Source: Nesterenkonia sp.
GTDB lineage: Bacteria; Actinomycetota; Actinomycetes; Actinomycetales; Micrococcaceae
Assembly (NCBI RefSeq): GCF_029265375.1
Contig: NZ_JAJUJJ010000011.1
Location: 25,390 to 89,389 of the forward strand
Length of the DNA stretch: 64,000 nt
Direction: 5' to 3'
In this document: piece by piece, positions 19,075-56,222 of the stretch
Layout of the letters: each line of letters opens with the position of its first letter
Position numbering within the stretch: the stretch's first letter is position 1
Made by a program: the position numbers and the translations under genes
The notes under the pieces: generated by a model
What the model saw: only the letters and a program-made list of their open reading frames with translations
Database searches by the model: none
Told to the model about the DNA's origin: nothing

Positions 19075-20202
19075 TCACTGGTTGAGCAGACGCACCGGCA
19101 TCAGCAGATACCGGAAATCGGTGGAGTTCTCACCCTCGGGGGACTCCTGCCCGGTGATCATGGCCGGTTTGGGAGCTGAGACGAAGGAGAAGCGCAGGTA
19201 CTCGGTGTCGATGACGTTGAGACCTTCGTTCAGGTAGGTGGGGTTGAAGCCCACTGTGATCGGTTCGCCGCTGAGCTGGGCCTCGATGACTTCAGAGGCC
19301 GAGGCGTTGTCATCTACTCCGGCGTCGAGCGTGACCCGGTTGTCCTCGGTGAACTGCAGGCGCACATGCCCGTTGCGCTCGGAGACCAGGGAGACCCGGC
19401 GCGATGCCTCGATCAGCTCAGCAGTGCTGACCACCGCGTTGATGGGTGTCTCCTCCGGGAAGAGCTGCCGGATCTTGGGGTATTCGCCGTCGACCAGCAC
19501 GCTGGTGGTCCGCCGGCCGCCGGAGGAGAAGCCGACCAGATTCTCGGATTCGGACATGGCCAGGGACAGGTCCCCGCCTCCGGCCAGGGATTTGGCCACG
19601 TCGTTGAGCGTCTTGGCTTTGATCAGCAGGGAGGTGGAGATGCTGGGCTCGGCGGGACTCCAGGTGATCTCCCGCATGGCCAGCCGATACCGGTCGGTGG
19701 CCAGGAAGGTGATGGTGTCGCCTTCGAACTCCAGCTTCACACAGGGCAGGATCGGCAGAGTGTCGTCCTTTGCTGCCGCTGTGGTGACCTGCGAGACCGC
19801 ACGGGCGAAGACCGAGCCGTCCACAGTTCCTGCAGCCTCGGGCTGCGCCGGGAGATCCGGATACTCATCCACCGGCATCGTGGTCAGAGTGAAGGTGGAT
19901 GACCGGCAGGTGACGACCACCTTGGACTCCTCCAGCGAGAGGGTCACCGGGGCGTTCGGCAGAGCTTTGACGATGTCATTGAGCAGTCGGCCGGAGACCA
20001 GCACCGTCCCCTCGGCTGCGACGTCGGCTTCGATGTGCAGCTGTGCGGAGACCTCGTAGTCGAAGCTGGAGATGGTGACGATCTGGTCCTCGGCGGTGAT
20101 CAGCAGCCCGGAGAGCACCGGTGCCGGAGGACGCGGTGAGAGGGATCGTGCAGTCCAGGAGACCGCCTCGGACAAAACGTCACGGTCAACGGTGAACTGC
20201 AC
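19075..20202 (-). CDS. dnaN: DNA polymerase III beta subunit (sliding clamp)
   Basis: Ring-shaped processivity factor for the replicative polymerase, 375 residues, made of three clamp domains and ending in LMPVRLLNQ. I chose the GTG at 20202, giving VQFTVDRDVLSEAVSW, because GAGGAG lies six bases upstream and family members begin at this point; the track start adds 41 unlikely residues. It lies directly downstream of oriC and reads away from it into recF. Confidence 0.97.
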   Translation of the reverse strand: MQFTVDRDVLSEAVSWTARSLSPRPPAPVLSGLLITAEDQIVTISSFDYEVSAQLHIEADVAAEGTVLVSGRLLNDIVKALPNAPVTLSLEESKVVVTCRSSTFTLTTMPVDEYPDLPAQPEAAGTVDGSVFARAVSQVTTAAAKDDTLPILPCVKLEFEGDTITFLATDRYRLAMREITWSPAEPSISTSLLIKAKTLNDVAKSLAGGGDLSLAMSESENLVGFSSGGRRTTSVLVDGEYPKIRQLFPEETPINAVVSTAELIEASRRVSLVSERNGHVRLQFTEDNRVTLDAGVDDNASASEVIEAQLSGEPITVGFNPTYLNEGLNVIDTEYLRFSFVSAPKPAMITGQESPEGENSTDFRYLLMPVRLLNQ

Positions 20203-20810
20203 TGCGGTCTCCTCGAGTCGTCGATCGTCGATCTGTGCAATGTCAAGCACCCTGAGGTGCCGTGTCTGCTGAGGCATGAGCTTACCCCGAACACTAGATA
20301 GGCCGAAAGTCCGGGGGTGAACCACAACATCTTGAGACCGCGCAGCGTCGGAGGGCGGACTGTTGTTTGTGCAGAAGCATGTCGGAGAAGAAGGACAGAA
20401 GTGGTAGTAACGGGTGTGGATTCTGTGGATAACCGGCTGCTGGTCGCTGATGCCGCCGTCGAGCCTGTGAGGACCACGGTGGAGGAGAAACGGTGGGGCT
20501 GTAAATCACACGGGGAGGATTCTGAGCATGCTGAGGCGGATCTCCCCACATGAGGCGGGTGACTCCACAGGAAACCGGTGTGTCGTCCTCACATAATCCA
20601 CCGAGTTATCCACAGGTGTGGGAAGCGTGGTGGAGAAACTTCACCGCTGCCTGTGGATATGTGGGGAAAACTGTGGAAGACGCTGCGGGCTGTCGGCAGC
20701 GTCTCCGCTGATGGCGCGGAACTACATGCGTGTGAGATGTGCACAGAACCGCTGCCCACACCTGTCAGCGACGAGTTTGACATGCTCCTGCAACCGGAGG
20801 GTCACCAGAG
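20203..20810. other. oriC: Chromosomal replication origin oriC (dnaA-dnaN intergenic region)
   Basis: A 608-bp non-coding stretch between dnaA and dnaN. Perfect DnaA boxes are TGTGGATAA at 20424-20432 and TTATCCACA at 20606-20614. Near matches include TGTGGATTC (20415-20423), TGTGGATAT (20652-20660) and TGTGGAAGA (20672-20680), plus several CCACA-containing sites around 20545-20600 and 20755. Location and box density match mycobacterial and streptomycete origins. The dnaN promoter must also lie here. Confidence 0.93.
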
Positions 20811-22373
20811 TCAGCGGCCCTGCTTGATCTTGTTGGTCAGCTCGGTGACCTGGTTGAACACCGCTCGGCGCTCGGCCATCAGTTCGCGGATCTTGCGCTC
20901 GGCGTAGATCACGGTGGTGTGGTCACGTCCGCCGAGGGCCTGTCCGATCTTCGGCAGGGACATCTCAGTCAGCTCCCGCAGCAGATACATGGCGATCTGA
21001 CGGGCGGTGACCAGAGTGCGGTTGCGCGACTTGGAGGTCAGCTCATCGACGGTGAAGCCGTAGTACTCCGCAGTGGCGTCGATGATCTTCTCCGCCGTGA
21101 TCTCCTGTGCATTGTCATCGGAGATCAGATCGCGCATGACCTGCTCAGCCAGCGGCAGGTCCACTTCCTGCTTGTTCAGTGCCGCGTAGGCGGTCACGCG
21201 GATCAGCGCTCCCTCCAGCTCGCGAATATTGGTGGAGATCTTCGAGCCGATGTATTCCAGGACGTCGTCGGGGCATGAGAAGTTCTCCGCATTGGCCTTC
21301 TTGCGCAGAATGGCGATGCGGGTCTCCAGGTCAGGCGGCTGAATATCTGTGATCAGGCCCCATTCGAACCGGGAGCGCAGCCGCTCTTCGAATCCGGAGA
21401 GCTGCTTGGGCGGCTCATCAGAGGTGATGACCACCTGCTTATTGTTGTTGTAGAGGGTGTTGAAGGTGTGGAAGAACTCCTCCACGGTACGTTCCTTGTC
21501 CGCGAGGAACTGGATATCGTCCAGCAGCAGGATGTCCACATTGCGGTAGAGATGCTTGAAGCTGGCGCCTTCGTCGTCGCGGATGGAATTGATGAAGTCA
21601 TTGGTGAACTCCTCAGAGTTCACGTACCGGACCCTGATGCCGCTGTAGAGGCGCTGGGCGTAGTGGCCGATGGCGTGGAGCAGGTGGGTCTTGCCCAGGC
21701 CGGAGTCGCCGTAGATGAACAGCGGGTTGTACGCCTTCGCCGGAGCTTCAGCCACAGCATTGGCAGCCGCGTGGGCGAAGCGGTTCGAGGAGCCGATGAC
21801 AAAGGTCTCGAACGTGTAGCGCGGATTCAGCCGTGAGGTCTCGAAGCTTCCGCCCTCCGGACCGATCGACGCCGGGACCGACTGCTGCGCACCGGCAGAC
21901 GGGCCGCGCTCGGCAGAGCCGGCCGGGTAGGGGACGGCGGTGCTGCGGTCCGGCACCGGGTGGGGCGGAAGCGGGGTGTCGCTGCCGCCCGGAGACGGGG
22001 CAGAGGCGGCAGGGCTCTCCACAGCGGGGGAAGGGGTCTCAGCGGCAGAGAGCGTCTCCTCGGTGGTCCCGCGGCTGGCCTGGGCCTGCTGCTTGTCCAG
22101 GTCTGGATCGATCACATAGGCGACCAGAATGTCGCGGCCGAAGACGCTGCGCAGGGCGTCCGACAGCTCCGCCTGCAGCTGGGACTGCATCAGTTTGCGC
22201 ACCCGCTCATGGGGTACGGCAAGCAGCAGGGTGTCGCCGATGAGCTGCTCGGACTGCGGAACGGCGCGGCCCATATCGGTGAGCTTCAGCCCGGTGATGC
22301 CGTGGTGCTCGCGCAGCTCGGTGAGCACCTGCTGCCATTTCACGGACACGGTGGCGTCGGACTCAGCGGACAC
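20811..22373 (-). CDS. dnaA: Chromosomal replication initiator DnaA
   Basis: AAA+ initiator of 520 residues that binds the boxes in oriC and melts DNA. Domain I spans residues 1-95 and a Pro/Ser-rich domain II about 95-185. Domain III has Walker [18 protein letters not shown], Walker [16 protein letters not shown] and sensor motifs. Domain IV contains the DNA-binding signature [16 protein letters not shown] chose GTG 22373 ([14 protein letters not shown]), with GGGGGAG five bases before it, over the track start 11 codons upstream. Confidence 0.98.
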
Positions 22374-22426
22374 GCTGCTCCCCCTGATGGTTCGGTGGTC
22401 GGGCACGGTTCAGATTGTTCGAACAG

Positions 22427-52620: not shown

Positions 52621-53745
52621 TCAGCTGCCGGTCTCCGCCTGGACTCCGCCGGGGACGGGGTCACGCCCCTCCGCCCGCCGGCGCTTGAGCGACTCGTGGG
52701 TCGGCGGCTCCGGAGTGCCCTCCGGCTGCCGGGCGGCCACCTCTCTGCGCAGCACCGGCACGACCTGCTCACCCAGCATCTCGATCTGCTCCAGAACAGT
52801 CTCCAGGGGCAGGCCGGCATGATCGATGAGGAACAGCTGACGCTGGTAGTGTCCGGCGTACTCGGCGAAGCTCAGGGTCTTCTCGATGACCTGGTCCGGG
52901 GTGCCCACCGTCAGCGGGGTCATCTCAGTGAAGTCCTCCAGTGAGGGGCCCCCGCCGTAGACCGGCGCATTGTCGAAGTAGGGGCGGAACTCCCGGACCG
53001 CGTCCTGGGACTTCTCCCGCATGAACACCTGTCCGCCCAGGCCGACGATCGCCTGCTCGGCGCTGCCGTGGCCGTAGTGCTCGAAGCGCTCGCGGTAGAG
53101 CTGCACCATCCGGCCGGTGTGCTCCTTGTTCCAGAAGATGTTGTTGTGGAAGAAGCCGTCCCCGTAGTAGGCAGCCTGTTCAGCGATCTCCGGGGAGCGG
53201 ATGGAGCCGTGCCACACAAAGGGAGGCACCGAGTCCAGCGGCCGCGGGGTGGCGGTGAAGTCCTGCAGGGGGGTGCGGTAGCGGCCCTGCCAGTCCACGT
53301 TCTCCTCGCGCCACAGCCGGTGCAGCAGCGCGTAGTTCTCCACCGCCAGCGGGATGCCCGCGCGTATGTCCTTGCCGAACCACGGGTAGACCGGCCCGGT
53401 GTTGCCCCGACCCAGGGTCAGATCGATCCGCCCATCCGCCAGGTGCTGCACGTAGGCGTAGTCCTCAGCGATGCGCACTGGGTCGGTGGTGGTGATCAGG
53501 GTGGTGGCGGTCGAGAGCAGAATGCGCTCGGTCTGGGCGGCCACATGCGCCATGAGGATCGGTGGGTTCGCCGGGGCCACGAACGGCGGATTGTGGTGCT
53601 GACCGATGGCGAAGACGTCCAGGCCCACCTCCTCGGCCTTTTTAGCGATGGCCACGGTGGCTTTGATGCGCTCATGCTCGGTGGGGCGGCGTCCCGTGGT
53701 GGGATCTTCGGTGACATCGCCGATGGAAAAGATGCCGAACTGCAT
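52621..53745 (-). CDS. LLM class flavin-dependent oxidoreductase
   Basis: Luciferase-like flavin monooxygenase of 374 residues: MQFGIFSIGDVTEDPTTGRRP, EEVGLDVFAIGQHHNPPF, ILLSTATTLITTTDPVRIAEDYA and LTLGRGNTGPVYPWFGKD are family segments. It uses FMNH2 from a reductase; substrate unknown. I place the start at 53745, with GAGGAG five bases upstream; the 45 extra track residues are non-conserved. The C-terminus has a polar extension. A 12-bp palindrome lies in the promoter. Confidence 0.9.
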   Translation of the reverse strand: MQFGIFSIGDVTEDPTTGRRPTEHERIKATVAIAKKAEEVGLDVFAIGQHHNPPFVAPANPPILMAHVAAQTERILLSTATTLITTTDPVRIAEDYAYVQHLADGRIDLTLGRGNTGPVYPWFGKDIRAGIPLAVENYALLHRLWREENVDWQGRYRTPLQDFTATPRPLDSVPPFVWHGSIRSPEIAEQAAYYGDGFFHNNIFWNKEHTGRMVQLYRERFEHYGHGSAEQAIVGLGGQVFMREKSQDAVREFRPYFDNAPVYGGGPSLEDFTEMTPLTVGTPDQVIEKTLSFAEYAGHYQRQLFLIDHAGLPLETVLEQIEMLGEQVVPVLRREVAARQPEGTPEPPTHESLKRRRAEGRDPVPGGVQAETGS

Positions 53746-53808: not shown

Positions 53809-54860
53809 ATATATGCATCCGCAGGGCCTGACGCTGCAGCCTGCAGGACCGCCGGGAGGCACTGGCTGCAGAGGGCGCACAGACCTCTCGGCTGCGCCGG
53901 CTCTGGGCGGGTGCCGGGGGTGCAGTGCTGACCAGGACTTTTGGCCGAACGCCGCGCCTGTGCCTGCTCACTGGCTGTGGAGTACCTGTGGAAATCGGGC
54001 GCTGGAATGTGTCTATACACCCAACTGCGGGTGAACGGCAAGCGCCTCCCAGCGACCGGGAAGGTGAAGAAAAAAATTTGAACTCACAGGCGTGTCGCTA
54101 CATAACCCCAGGTCAACGCGATACCCAGACAGGATGTGGAAAAGAATCCACAGCAGTTCCCCCAGGTTGTGCACACGACACGCCGCGCAGTCCACATTTT
54201 ATCCACAGGCCCCGGTCTGCGAGCTATTGCCCAGGCGCTCAATGGGCCATACAGTGTGAACGTCCCTCAGCACCGATGGGAGTTTTCGGTATCCGCCCCA
54301 CGGTGGTCCGGCAGCTCTCAGACGGTGCGCGGGTCCGCCTTAGGCGGGGTCGCACCATGATGCGGGTATTGGCGGGCAGCACTGCCGGCGTGCATCCGCA
54401 TCAGACCACCGTCCGCTGTCCCAGTGGCCGGACTGAGAAGCCAGGGTGCCTGTTCGCGGTGTCCCTGGATTCTCCTGGGGACGCGAATGGCGGGCCGCTG
54501 TACGCCGCGGCGGCTCGAATCGGATCGCCGAGACCGAGGCACAGGGAAGGGGATCAGAACGGATCGGGCCCTACCGGCCTGACGCGCTGATCCAGCCTCG
54601 GCTCGGCGATCCGGCCCGTTCAGCGGCGGTTCTGCGCGGATCTCTGTGGAGATACCGCATGTTTCATGCCGACGTCGGCATCTGCGTGCCGGTGTCCGAC
54701 CGGGATCCACTCTCACCTGCGGGCAGTAGAGTAGTGCAGACGCTGCGATCCCGCCGTCGCCGAATCTCCCTGTGCCCCGGACGCCTGCGCAGTGGCCGGC
54801 GGTGAGCACCTCGGCGCCGGTAAGCCTGCTGGTCTGCTGTACGAAAGGACGACCGTCTAC
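53809..54860. other. Non-coding stretch upstream of dnaB
   Basis: About 1.05 kb without a convincing gene. The 221-residue ORF at 53925 and the 119-residue ORF at 54446 show no family character and odd composition. It contains the DnaA-box cluster listed separately and must hold the dnaB promoter; TAGAGT at 54729-54734 is one possible -10 box. I see no tRNA or known RNA. Confidence 0.6.
53976..54207. promoter_or_regulatory. DnaA-box cluster upstream of dnaB
   Basis: A perfect TTATCCACA (54199-54207), one-mismatch TGTGGAAAA (54135-54143), and weaker TGTGGAGTA (53976-53984), TGTGGAAAT (53986-53994), GAATCCACA (54144-54152), TTGTGCACA (54167-54175) and CAGTCCACA (54188-54196). The cluster ends about 650 bases before dnaB. 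Confidence 0.6.
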
Positions 54861-56222
54861 GTGAGTGTGGACACCTACGATCCGAGCACCGGTGCTGGGG
54901 CCGAGTCGCGCACTCCGCCCCAGGACATGGTGGCCGAGCAGTCGGTGCTCGGTGGAATGATGCTCTCCAAGGACGCCATCGCCGATGTGGTGGAGATCCT
55001 GCGCGGCCGCGACTTCTACCGTCCGGCCCACGAGATGATCTTCGACGCCATCGTGGACCTCTACGGCCGCGGCGAACCGGCCGATGTGGTCACCATCTCC
55101 GACCATCTGACCAAGAAGCAGCAGCTGCAGCGCATCGGTGGACCTGCCTATCTGCACAACCTCGCACAGTCGGTGCCCACCGCCGCCAATGCCGCCTTCT
55201 ATGCAGAAATCGTGCGCGAACGCGCGATCCTCCGCCGTCTGGTGGAGGCCGGCACCAAGATTGTGCAGCTGGGCCACACCTCCGACGGCGAGGTGGACGC
55301 GATCGTCAATGAGGCGCAGGCGGAGATCTACAACGTAGCGGAGAACCGCCAGTCGGAGGACTACACCCCGCTTTCGGAGGTGCTGGCGCCGACGATCGAC
55401 GAGATTGAGACCAACGCGGCCCATGACGGCAGTCTCACCGGGATTCCCACCGGCTTCCGGGAGCTGGACGAGCTGACCCACGGCTTCCACGGGGGCCAGC
55501 TGATCGTCATCGCCGCCCGTCCGGCGATGGGCAAGTCCGTGCTGGCGCTGGACTTCTCCCGCTCGGCAGCGGTGGCCAACGGGATGACCACCGCCTTCTT
55601 CTCCCTGGAGATGGGCAAGATGGAGATCGCCACCCGACTGCTCTCCGCGGAGTCGGGGGTGCTCTTCGGGGATCTGCGCAAGGGCCGGCTCGAGGACAGC
55701 GACTGGGAGAGGATCTCCCAGGCGGTGGACAAGCTGGACCAGGTGCCGCTGTTCATCGACGACTCCCCGAACCTCTCGCTGATGGAGATCCGCGCCAAAT
55801 GCCGCCGGCTGAAGCAGCGGAACAATCTGAAGCTGGTGGTGGTGGACTACCTGCAGCTGCTTGCCTCCGGCAAGCGGGTGGAGTCCCGCCAGCAGGAGGT
55901 CGCCGAGTTCTCGCGCACCCTGAAGCTGCTGGCCAAGGAGCTGGATGTGCCGATCATCGCGCTCTCCCAGCTCAACCGCGGCTCTGAGCAGCGCCCGGAT
56001 AAGAAGCCGCAGGTCTCGGACCTGCGAGAATCCGGATCGATTGAGCAGGACGCCGATATGGTGATCCTGCTGCACCGGCCTGAGGTCTACGACAAGGAGA
56101 CTGAGCGCGCCGGAGAGGCCGACATCATCGTGGCCAAGAACCGCAACGGCCCCACCCGTGATGTGGTGGTCGCATTCCAGGGTCACTACCAGCGGTTCCG
56201 GGACATGGCGCAGGACTTCTGA
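54861..56222 (+). CDS. dnaB: Replicative DNA helicase DnaB
   Basis: Hexameric 5'-3' helicase of 453 residues. The N-terminal primase-interacting domain begins PPQDMVAEQSVLGGMMLSKDAIADVV. The RecA-like motor has Walker A AARPAMGKSVLALDFSR, Walker B LVVVDYLQLLASG and ALSQLNRGSEQRPDKKPQVSDLRESGSIEQDAD. There is no intein. I chose GTG 54861 (VSVDTYDPSTGAG), with GAAAGGAC upstream; the track start adds 23 doubtful residues. Confidence 0.97.
   Translation: MSVDTYDPSTGAGAESRTPPQDMVAEQSVLGGMMLSKDAIADVVEILRGRDFYRPAHEMIFDAIVDLYGRGEPADVVTISDHLTKKQQLQRIGGPAYLHNLAQSVPTAANAAFYAEIVRERAILRRLVEAGTKIVQLGHTSDGEVDAIVNEAQAEIYNVAENRQSEDYTPLSEVLAPTIDEIETNAAHDGSLTGIPTGFRELDELTHGFHGGQLIVIAARPAMGKSVLALDFSRSAAVANGMTTAFFSLEMGKMEIATRLLSAESGVLFGDLRKGRLEDSDWERISQAVDKLDQVPLFIDDSPNLSLMEIRAKCRRLKQRNNLKLVVVDYLQLLASGKRVESRQQEVAEFSRTLKLLAKELDVPIIALSQLNRGSEQRPDKKPQVSDLRESGSIEQDADMVILLHRPEVYDKETERAGEADIIVAKNRNGPTRDVVVAFQGHYQRFRDMAQDF

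Follow-up and report, generated by a model that had tools for sequence, protein, structure and literature searches.

The whole stretch of DNA that was analysed, 64 kb from Nesterenkonia sp. (hereafter the window), carries the replicative helicase gene dnaB behind a gap of 1115 bp, measured from 53745, the start of a divergent gene for a luciferase-like monooxygenase, to the dnaB GTG codon at 54861 (Table 1). The sequence-only reading that preceded this work had described here a non-coding region of 1.1 kb with one perfect DnaA box and about six weaker sites; the length agrees with our measurement, and a sequence scan recovered the perfect TTATCCACA as well as the roughly six weaker boxes at 53976–54207. 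Within these 232 bp, six TCCACA/TGTGGA cores were observed where 0.23 were expected at the window's own rate, and the core density is the highest found anywhere in the 64 kb. Besides the cores of the two individually listed boxes, TCCACA cores are located at 53976, 53987, 54147 and 54191. An inverted motif (GGCGTGTCG and CGACACGCC, at 54089–54097 and 54176–54184) was seen flanking the inner boxes, and the same words occur near boxes in other families.

Table 1. Features of the interval upstream of dnaB in the window.
Feature	Position	Strand	Basis or remark
Luciferase-like monooxygenase gene, between rplI and the box module	52621–53745	-	identity from sequence resemblance only
Left DnaA-box pair, TACTCCACA + ATTTCCACA (read on the - strand)	53976–53995	-	cores 11 bp apart
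DnaA box TTTTCCACA	54135–54143	-	sequence scan
Weaker DnaA box GAATCCACA	54144–54152	+	~44 bp left of right pair; 44-bp spacing recurs in relatives
Palindromic TTGTGCACA	54167–54175	.	recurrent in relatives
Right DnaA-box pair, CAGTCCACA + perfect TTATCCACA	54188–54207	+	cores 11 bp apart
Perfect DnaA box TTATCCACA	54199–54207	+	sequence scan
-35 element TTGCCC	54227–54232	+	conservation; 36 bp from start of right pair's first core
-10 element TACAGT	54250–54255	+	conservation; spacer 17
Predicted structured RNA, ~350 nt	~54262–54616	+	ends inferred from alignment
RNA 5′ domain, hairpin with internal loop GUAUUG / GUGCAU	54358–54404	+	R2 match, E 4.6e-10; covariation; fold z -3.9
RNA 3′ domain, long hairpin with one-sided internal loop	54517–54616	+	R1 match, E 8.7e-8; covariation; fold z -7.4
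Conserved GGGAAGG in 3′-domain internal loop	54544–54550	+	dnaB Shine-Dalgarno position in Micrococcus/Citricoccus
dnaB (replicative helicase), GTG start	54861–56222	+	

The motif TTWTCCACA occurs only 16 times in the 2.72-Mb genome, and eight of the 16 occurrences lie in the window, where they form three groups: one at 2.6–2.7 kb, one in the dnaA/oriC region at 20.4–22.4 kb and the pre-dnaB cluster. The dnaA gene (20811–22406) and dnaN (19075–20325) are accompanied by boxes at 20424, 20606 and 22441, and the pre-dnaB cluster, ~32 kb from these genes and the main box cluster there, was rejected as a candidate oriC. The first group (2636–2708) is a second extra-oriC cluster, comprising three copies of TTTTCCACA and one TTATCCCCA. 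A rhomboid-like gene and a small gene flank it, and cyclophilin-like and pabA-like genes lie close by; judged by gene order, we take it to be the counterpart of the Mycobacterium tuberculosis DnaA site Rv0010c–Rv0011c (crgA).

Upstream regions of dnaB were compared more widely. In a set of 20 genomes from the order, of which six belong to the same family, the 500 bp preceding dnaB contained 25 copies of TTNTCCACA (0.24 expected) and 76 cores (5.6 expected), although a few genomes (L054, L056 and L060) have none within this distance. The corresponding interval in 29 genomes from the class, one of which (L153) duplicates an order genome, gave 31 copies of TTNTCCACA (0.26 expected) and 103 cores (7.8 expected), and each of the 29 has at least two cores. 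A DnaA-box site before dnaB is a feature of actinobacteria almost throughout the class. An additional motif, GCAGGTCAG / CTGACCTGC, was noted near DnaA boxes in 16–18 of 48 dnaB upstream regions from the order and class genomes (L051–L070, L133–L160), and L056, from genus g6, has a detached box cluster ~2.8 kb upstream of dnaB at which no RNA of the kind described below was recognised.

In vitro affinity sequencing has shown M. tuberculosis DnaA to bind upstream of dnaB (Rv0057 region), the other sites being oriC, rpmH–dnaA, Rv0010c–Rv0011c and Rv3843c–RVnc0040, and the same authors followed this up by ChIP-seq in M. smegmatis (Hicks et al. 2020, PMC7738170). The DnaA mutant I282T bound the dnaB promoter more weakly, and dnaB was under-expressed (PMC7738170). 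Given this binding and the class-wide boxes, a box cluster before dnaB is, as such, already a known kind of site, and it is well supported that the boxes in the window are genuine DnaA sites tied to dnaB. The earlier suggestion that clusters bracket oriC on both sides matches the groups at 2.6–2.7 kb and before dnaB, and it has an experimental parallel in M. tuberculosis, where DnaA binds both the pre-dnaB site and Rv0010c–Rv0011c, taken above as the counterpart of the first group.

A first look limited to 1.5 kb upstream of dnaB gave the impression of box loss in most Nesterenkonia, which was rejected when 6-kb stretches showed the boxes to have moved; they are kept in 20 of 20 relatives examined. 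The typical module consists of two minus-strand cores 11 bp apart, ~200 bp, and two plus-strand cores 11 bp apart, with an extra core ~44 bp ahead of the right pair, and a TGTGGA pair with the 11-bp spacing was found at the position of the left pair in most aligned Nesterenkonia. Its distance from dnaB ranges from 0.2 to 5.5 kb for the module as such. Bases between the boxes are conserved too, including an AT-rich stretch, GTGTGTCGCTACAT, GGTTGTGCACA and ACACGCCGC.

A simple promoter and terminator scan of the window returned no consensus promoter, and the candidate promoter became visible only through conservation. It is predicted to be of the sigma-70 type, with TTGnnn, a spacer of 17–18 bp and TAnnnT. 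The distance from the right pair to the -35 element is 36 bp in 18 and 37 bp in two of 20 Nesterenkonia, and TAnnnT follows at a spacer of 17 or 18 in all 20. Every Micrococcus and Citricoccus leader for which both an exact pair and a -10 element could be located has the same 36-bp spacing. This order of boxes and promoter could persist merely through inheritance of the unit as a block.

The promoter is followed by a predicted structured RNA with two domains. In the 5′ domain, 9 of 13 pairs have changed on both sides, and the covariation score is 0.471 against 0.224 for shuffles (0 of 500). In the 3′ domain, 11 of 29 pairs have changed on both sides, 91% of cells are paired and the score is 0.223 against 0.137 (0 of 500), in an alignment where the window copy is misaligned in the apical part, its own fold being unambiguous (z -7.4). 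G-U cells outnumber A-C cells by 44 to 16, which favours an RNA of the sense strand, and the RNA model scores much higher on this strand than on the complement. The RNA is present as a single copy per genome, on the sense strand, in the rplI–dnaB region. With strict filters, a model of the 3′ domain (R1) matched 23 of the 24 Nesterenkonia listed and gave no match in the other 31 genera, while a model of the 5′ domain (R2) had matches in Nesterenkonia, Citricoccus, Micrococcus and genus g2 and one weak match in g6; the G003 RNA was found by R2 though missed by R1. Over 297 genomes of the order, R2 returned only the window and one weak match (E 0.0096).

Several further searches around the RNA were negative. 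Comparison with Rfam 15 returned nothing that covers the RNA, either in the window (E <= 5) or in six relatives (E <= 1), and no terminator was seen. A closing helix joining the 5′ end to the middle of the RNA did no better than shuffles and was rejected, as was a coding function, a stop-free frame being present in some single genomes with no frame open throughout and the predicted length varying between 172 and 458 nt. A pattern scan for the 5′ domain in the named genomes gave 110 matches, of which 22 lie at the rplI–dnaB locus; the others, spread across unrelated phyla and about as many as chance would produce, were discarded. Weak R1 and R2 matches in L053 fall on a hairpin that resembles a terminator and has no boxes, and were set aside. 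The description of the gap as non-coding stands with respect to protein and fails with respect to the conserved promoter and the predicted structured RNA within it.

The unit of boxes, promoter and RNA is located 0.6–5.6 kb from dnaB in 24 other Nesterenkonia, mostly at 2–5.6 kb, often with a convergent gene in between, and it is inverted in five genomes (G003, G004, G008, G013 and G029). In most species the RNA is followed by the end of a convergent alpha/beta-hydrolase-like gene, after which G014 has a condensation-domain-like gene and then dnaB (identities judged from sequence). The window alone among the genomes examined is without these intervening genes; its RNA lies 248 bp before dnaB on the same strand, and the unit was probably brought back near dnaB by a deletion. 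The sequence-only reading had named loss of the boxes from close relatives that retain dnaB as evidence against it: in Nesterenkonia the boxes are retained and their adjacency to dnaB is not, the module persisting, through changes of distance and five inversions, at 20 further Nesterenkonia loci as well as in the window. More generally, the rplI–dnaB interval (L031–L050) is a rearrangement hotspot in the genus, in which the monooxygenase gene, the box-RNA unit and neighbouring genes have been inverted or moved independently.

The same promoter and RNA are joined directly to dnaB in Micrococcus, Citricoccus and g2, where the 3′ hairpin extends over the start of the gene. The outer helix of this domain is formed there between bases of the leader and early codons of dnaB, the one-sided internal loop carries GGGAAGG(G) at the Shine-Dalgarno position, and the start codon is found in the apical loop; eight such leaders have fold z values of -3.0 to -5.6. 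Homology of the leader and detached forms is supported by a 3′ model built from detached Nesterenkonia RNAs only, which, among 54.7 kb searched, placed the dnaB-start hairpins of eight leader sites at the top ranks (L116, L130, L112, L122, L128, L115, L129 and L127), with modest E values of 0.003–0.11. The RNA-bearing genera group together in a DnaB tree, weakly (74/46), which falls short of proving a single origin of the RNA. The detached state is probably derived, since across the class the boxes generally lie next to dnaB. The predicted RNA of the window stops ~245 nt short of the start codon and does not overlap the dnaB start as a cis-acting leader does; in other Nesterenkonia there is likewise no overlap, and the 3′ hairpin is without the dnaB start codon.

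Taken together, the pre-dnaB locus is fairly probably a promoter under DnaA control from which a conserved structured RNA is transcribed. DnaA would bind the box module. As the right pair is located 36 bp ahead of the -35 element, protein bound there could contact RNA polymerase, and the amount of RNA made would depend on how much DnaA is present or on its nucleotide state, and through this on the replication cycle. In the group of Micrococcus, Citricoccus and Nesterenkonia, the transcript would have acquired a structured leader overlapping the dnaB start. In the genera with the leader form, DnaA would couple dnaB transcription to this cycle and the hairpin would control dnaB translation, in keeping with an internal-loop Shine-Dalgarno sequence and an apical-loop start codon. 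In Nesterenkonia the unit as a whole would have become separated from dnaB and persisted as a stand-alone RNA gene with a DnaA promoter, its product acting in trans or serving another purpose. For this genus we infer both DnaA binding and transcription, and the sign of regulation, the transcript ends and the RNA target are likewise predictions. As the detached unit persists, the RNA should do something beyond leading dnaB, and it is best read, from sequence comparison, as a regulatory RNA that is linked to replication and descends from a dnaB leader. The fuller account, in which a new RNA family with transcription set by DnaA, formerly the leader of the helicase mRNA, became an independent trans-acting regulator in one genus and was kept beside its DnaA promoter through rearrangements, is put forward tentatively, and we consider it somewhat less probable than its opposite.

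Direct regulation of dnaB by DnaA, as the sequence-only reading had proposed, fits the enrichment of boxes before dnaB throughout the class and the binding and dnaB effect in M. tuberculosis (PMC7738170). If this were the entire function, the RNA would be merely the 5′ leader of dnaB, in the window included, where the unit lies on the dnaB strand 248 bp upstream and, pointing at dnaB, may again act as a leader; the Micrococcus/Citricoccus arrangement agrees with this as well. Such plain promoter control is possible but rather unlikely to be the full explanation: in the 24 other Nesterenkonia the unit is remote from dnaB, mostly with a convergent gene between, and in five it is inverted, and the 3′ hairpin of the genus does not contain the dnaB start codon. 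DnaA control of dnaB transcription, doubtful for the genus overall, is by position possible in the window and, as the unit is far from dnaB or inverted, appears unlikely in the other Nesterenkonia.

It is unlikely that the boxes instead form a reservoir or activity-modulating locus (datA- or DARS-like, or a titrating cluster) holding DnaA near oriC, with promoter and RNA incidental. The module does stay intact near oriC while its relation to dnaB shifts, an AT-rich stretch lies between box pairs that face opposite ways and few such clusters exist in the genome, but the constant distance of 36 bp from a conserved promoter, seen in three genera, and the adjoining covarying RNA would be left unexplained. 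It is very improbable that the hairpins work as single-stranded DNA, as a landing site for helicase or primase beside the DnaA cluster; boxes, AT-rich stretch and strong hairpins do adjoin one another and base-pair conservation by itself cannot separate RNA from DNA, yet a conserved promoter lies directly ahead of the hairpins, and both the G-U excess and the strand preference of the model argue for RNA. That the unit has been a functionless, slowly decaying relict since its detachment in Nesterenkonia would agree with the large length differences between the domains (predicted RNA 172–458 nt) and is just as improbable, as throughout the genus the boxes, their spacing, the promoter and the two RNA domains have been retained, with compensatory changes.

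The predicted DnaA-driven RNA gene can be compared to several known systems. In E. coli, datA and DARS are short non-coding DnaA-box clusters away from oriC with a fixed arrangement of boxes, a likeness to the module described here, whereas their action on the nucleotide state of DnaA is assisted by IHF or Fis and they have no tie to dnaB. The clusters H69, H24 and D78, which surround oriC in another actinobacterium, Streptomyces coelicolor, were reportedly described by Smulczyk-Krawczyszyn in 2006 as DnaA titration sites, one of which is said to limit initiation; they are not known to have a linked RNA. The Micrococcus/Citricoccus RNA resembles structured 5′ leaders that regulate how the gene behind them is translated in that it overlaps the dnaB Shine-Dalgarno sequence and start codon, and differs in that no Rfam family matches and that the Nesterenkonia RNA stands alone. 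A further parallel is the M. tuberculosis Rv0057-region site, which is also a DnaA-box cluster upstream of dnaB and one of few extra-oriC DnaA sites; in contrast to the present case, no structured leader RNA was noticed in the report of that site (PMC7738170), and the Nesterenkonia unit is detached from dnaB. Neither the RNA or its detachment from dnaB nor a post-transcriptional layer of bacterial replication control of the kind such an RNA could provide was found described in the literature searched, most subscription papers lying outside the search.

The DnaA site before dnaB known from mycobacteria is thus class-wide in actinobacteria and is here linked to an RNA absent from Rfam. The change from leader to free RNA between related genera offers a natural experiment on the role of the RNA without dnaB attached. 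Should DnaA drive the RNA, the helicase or another replication factor could have its level tuned post-transcriptionally in step with initiation.
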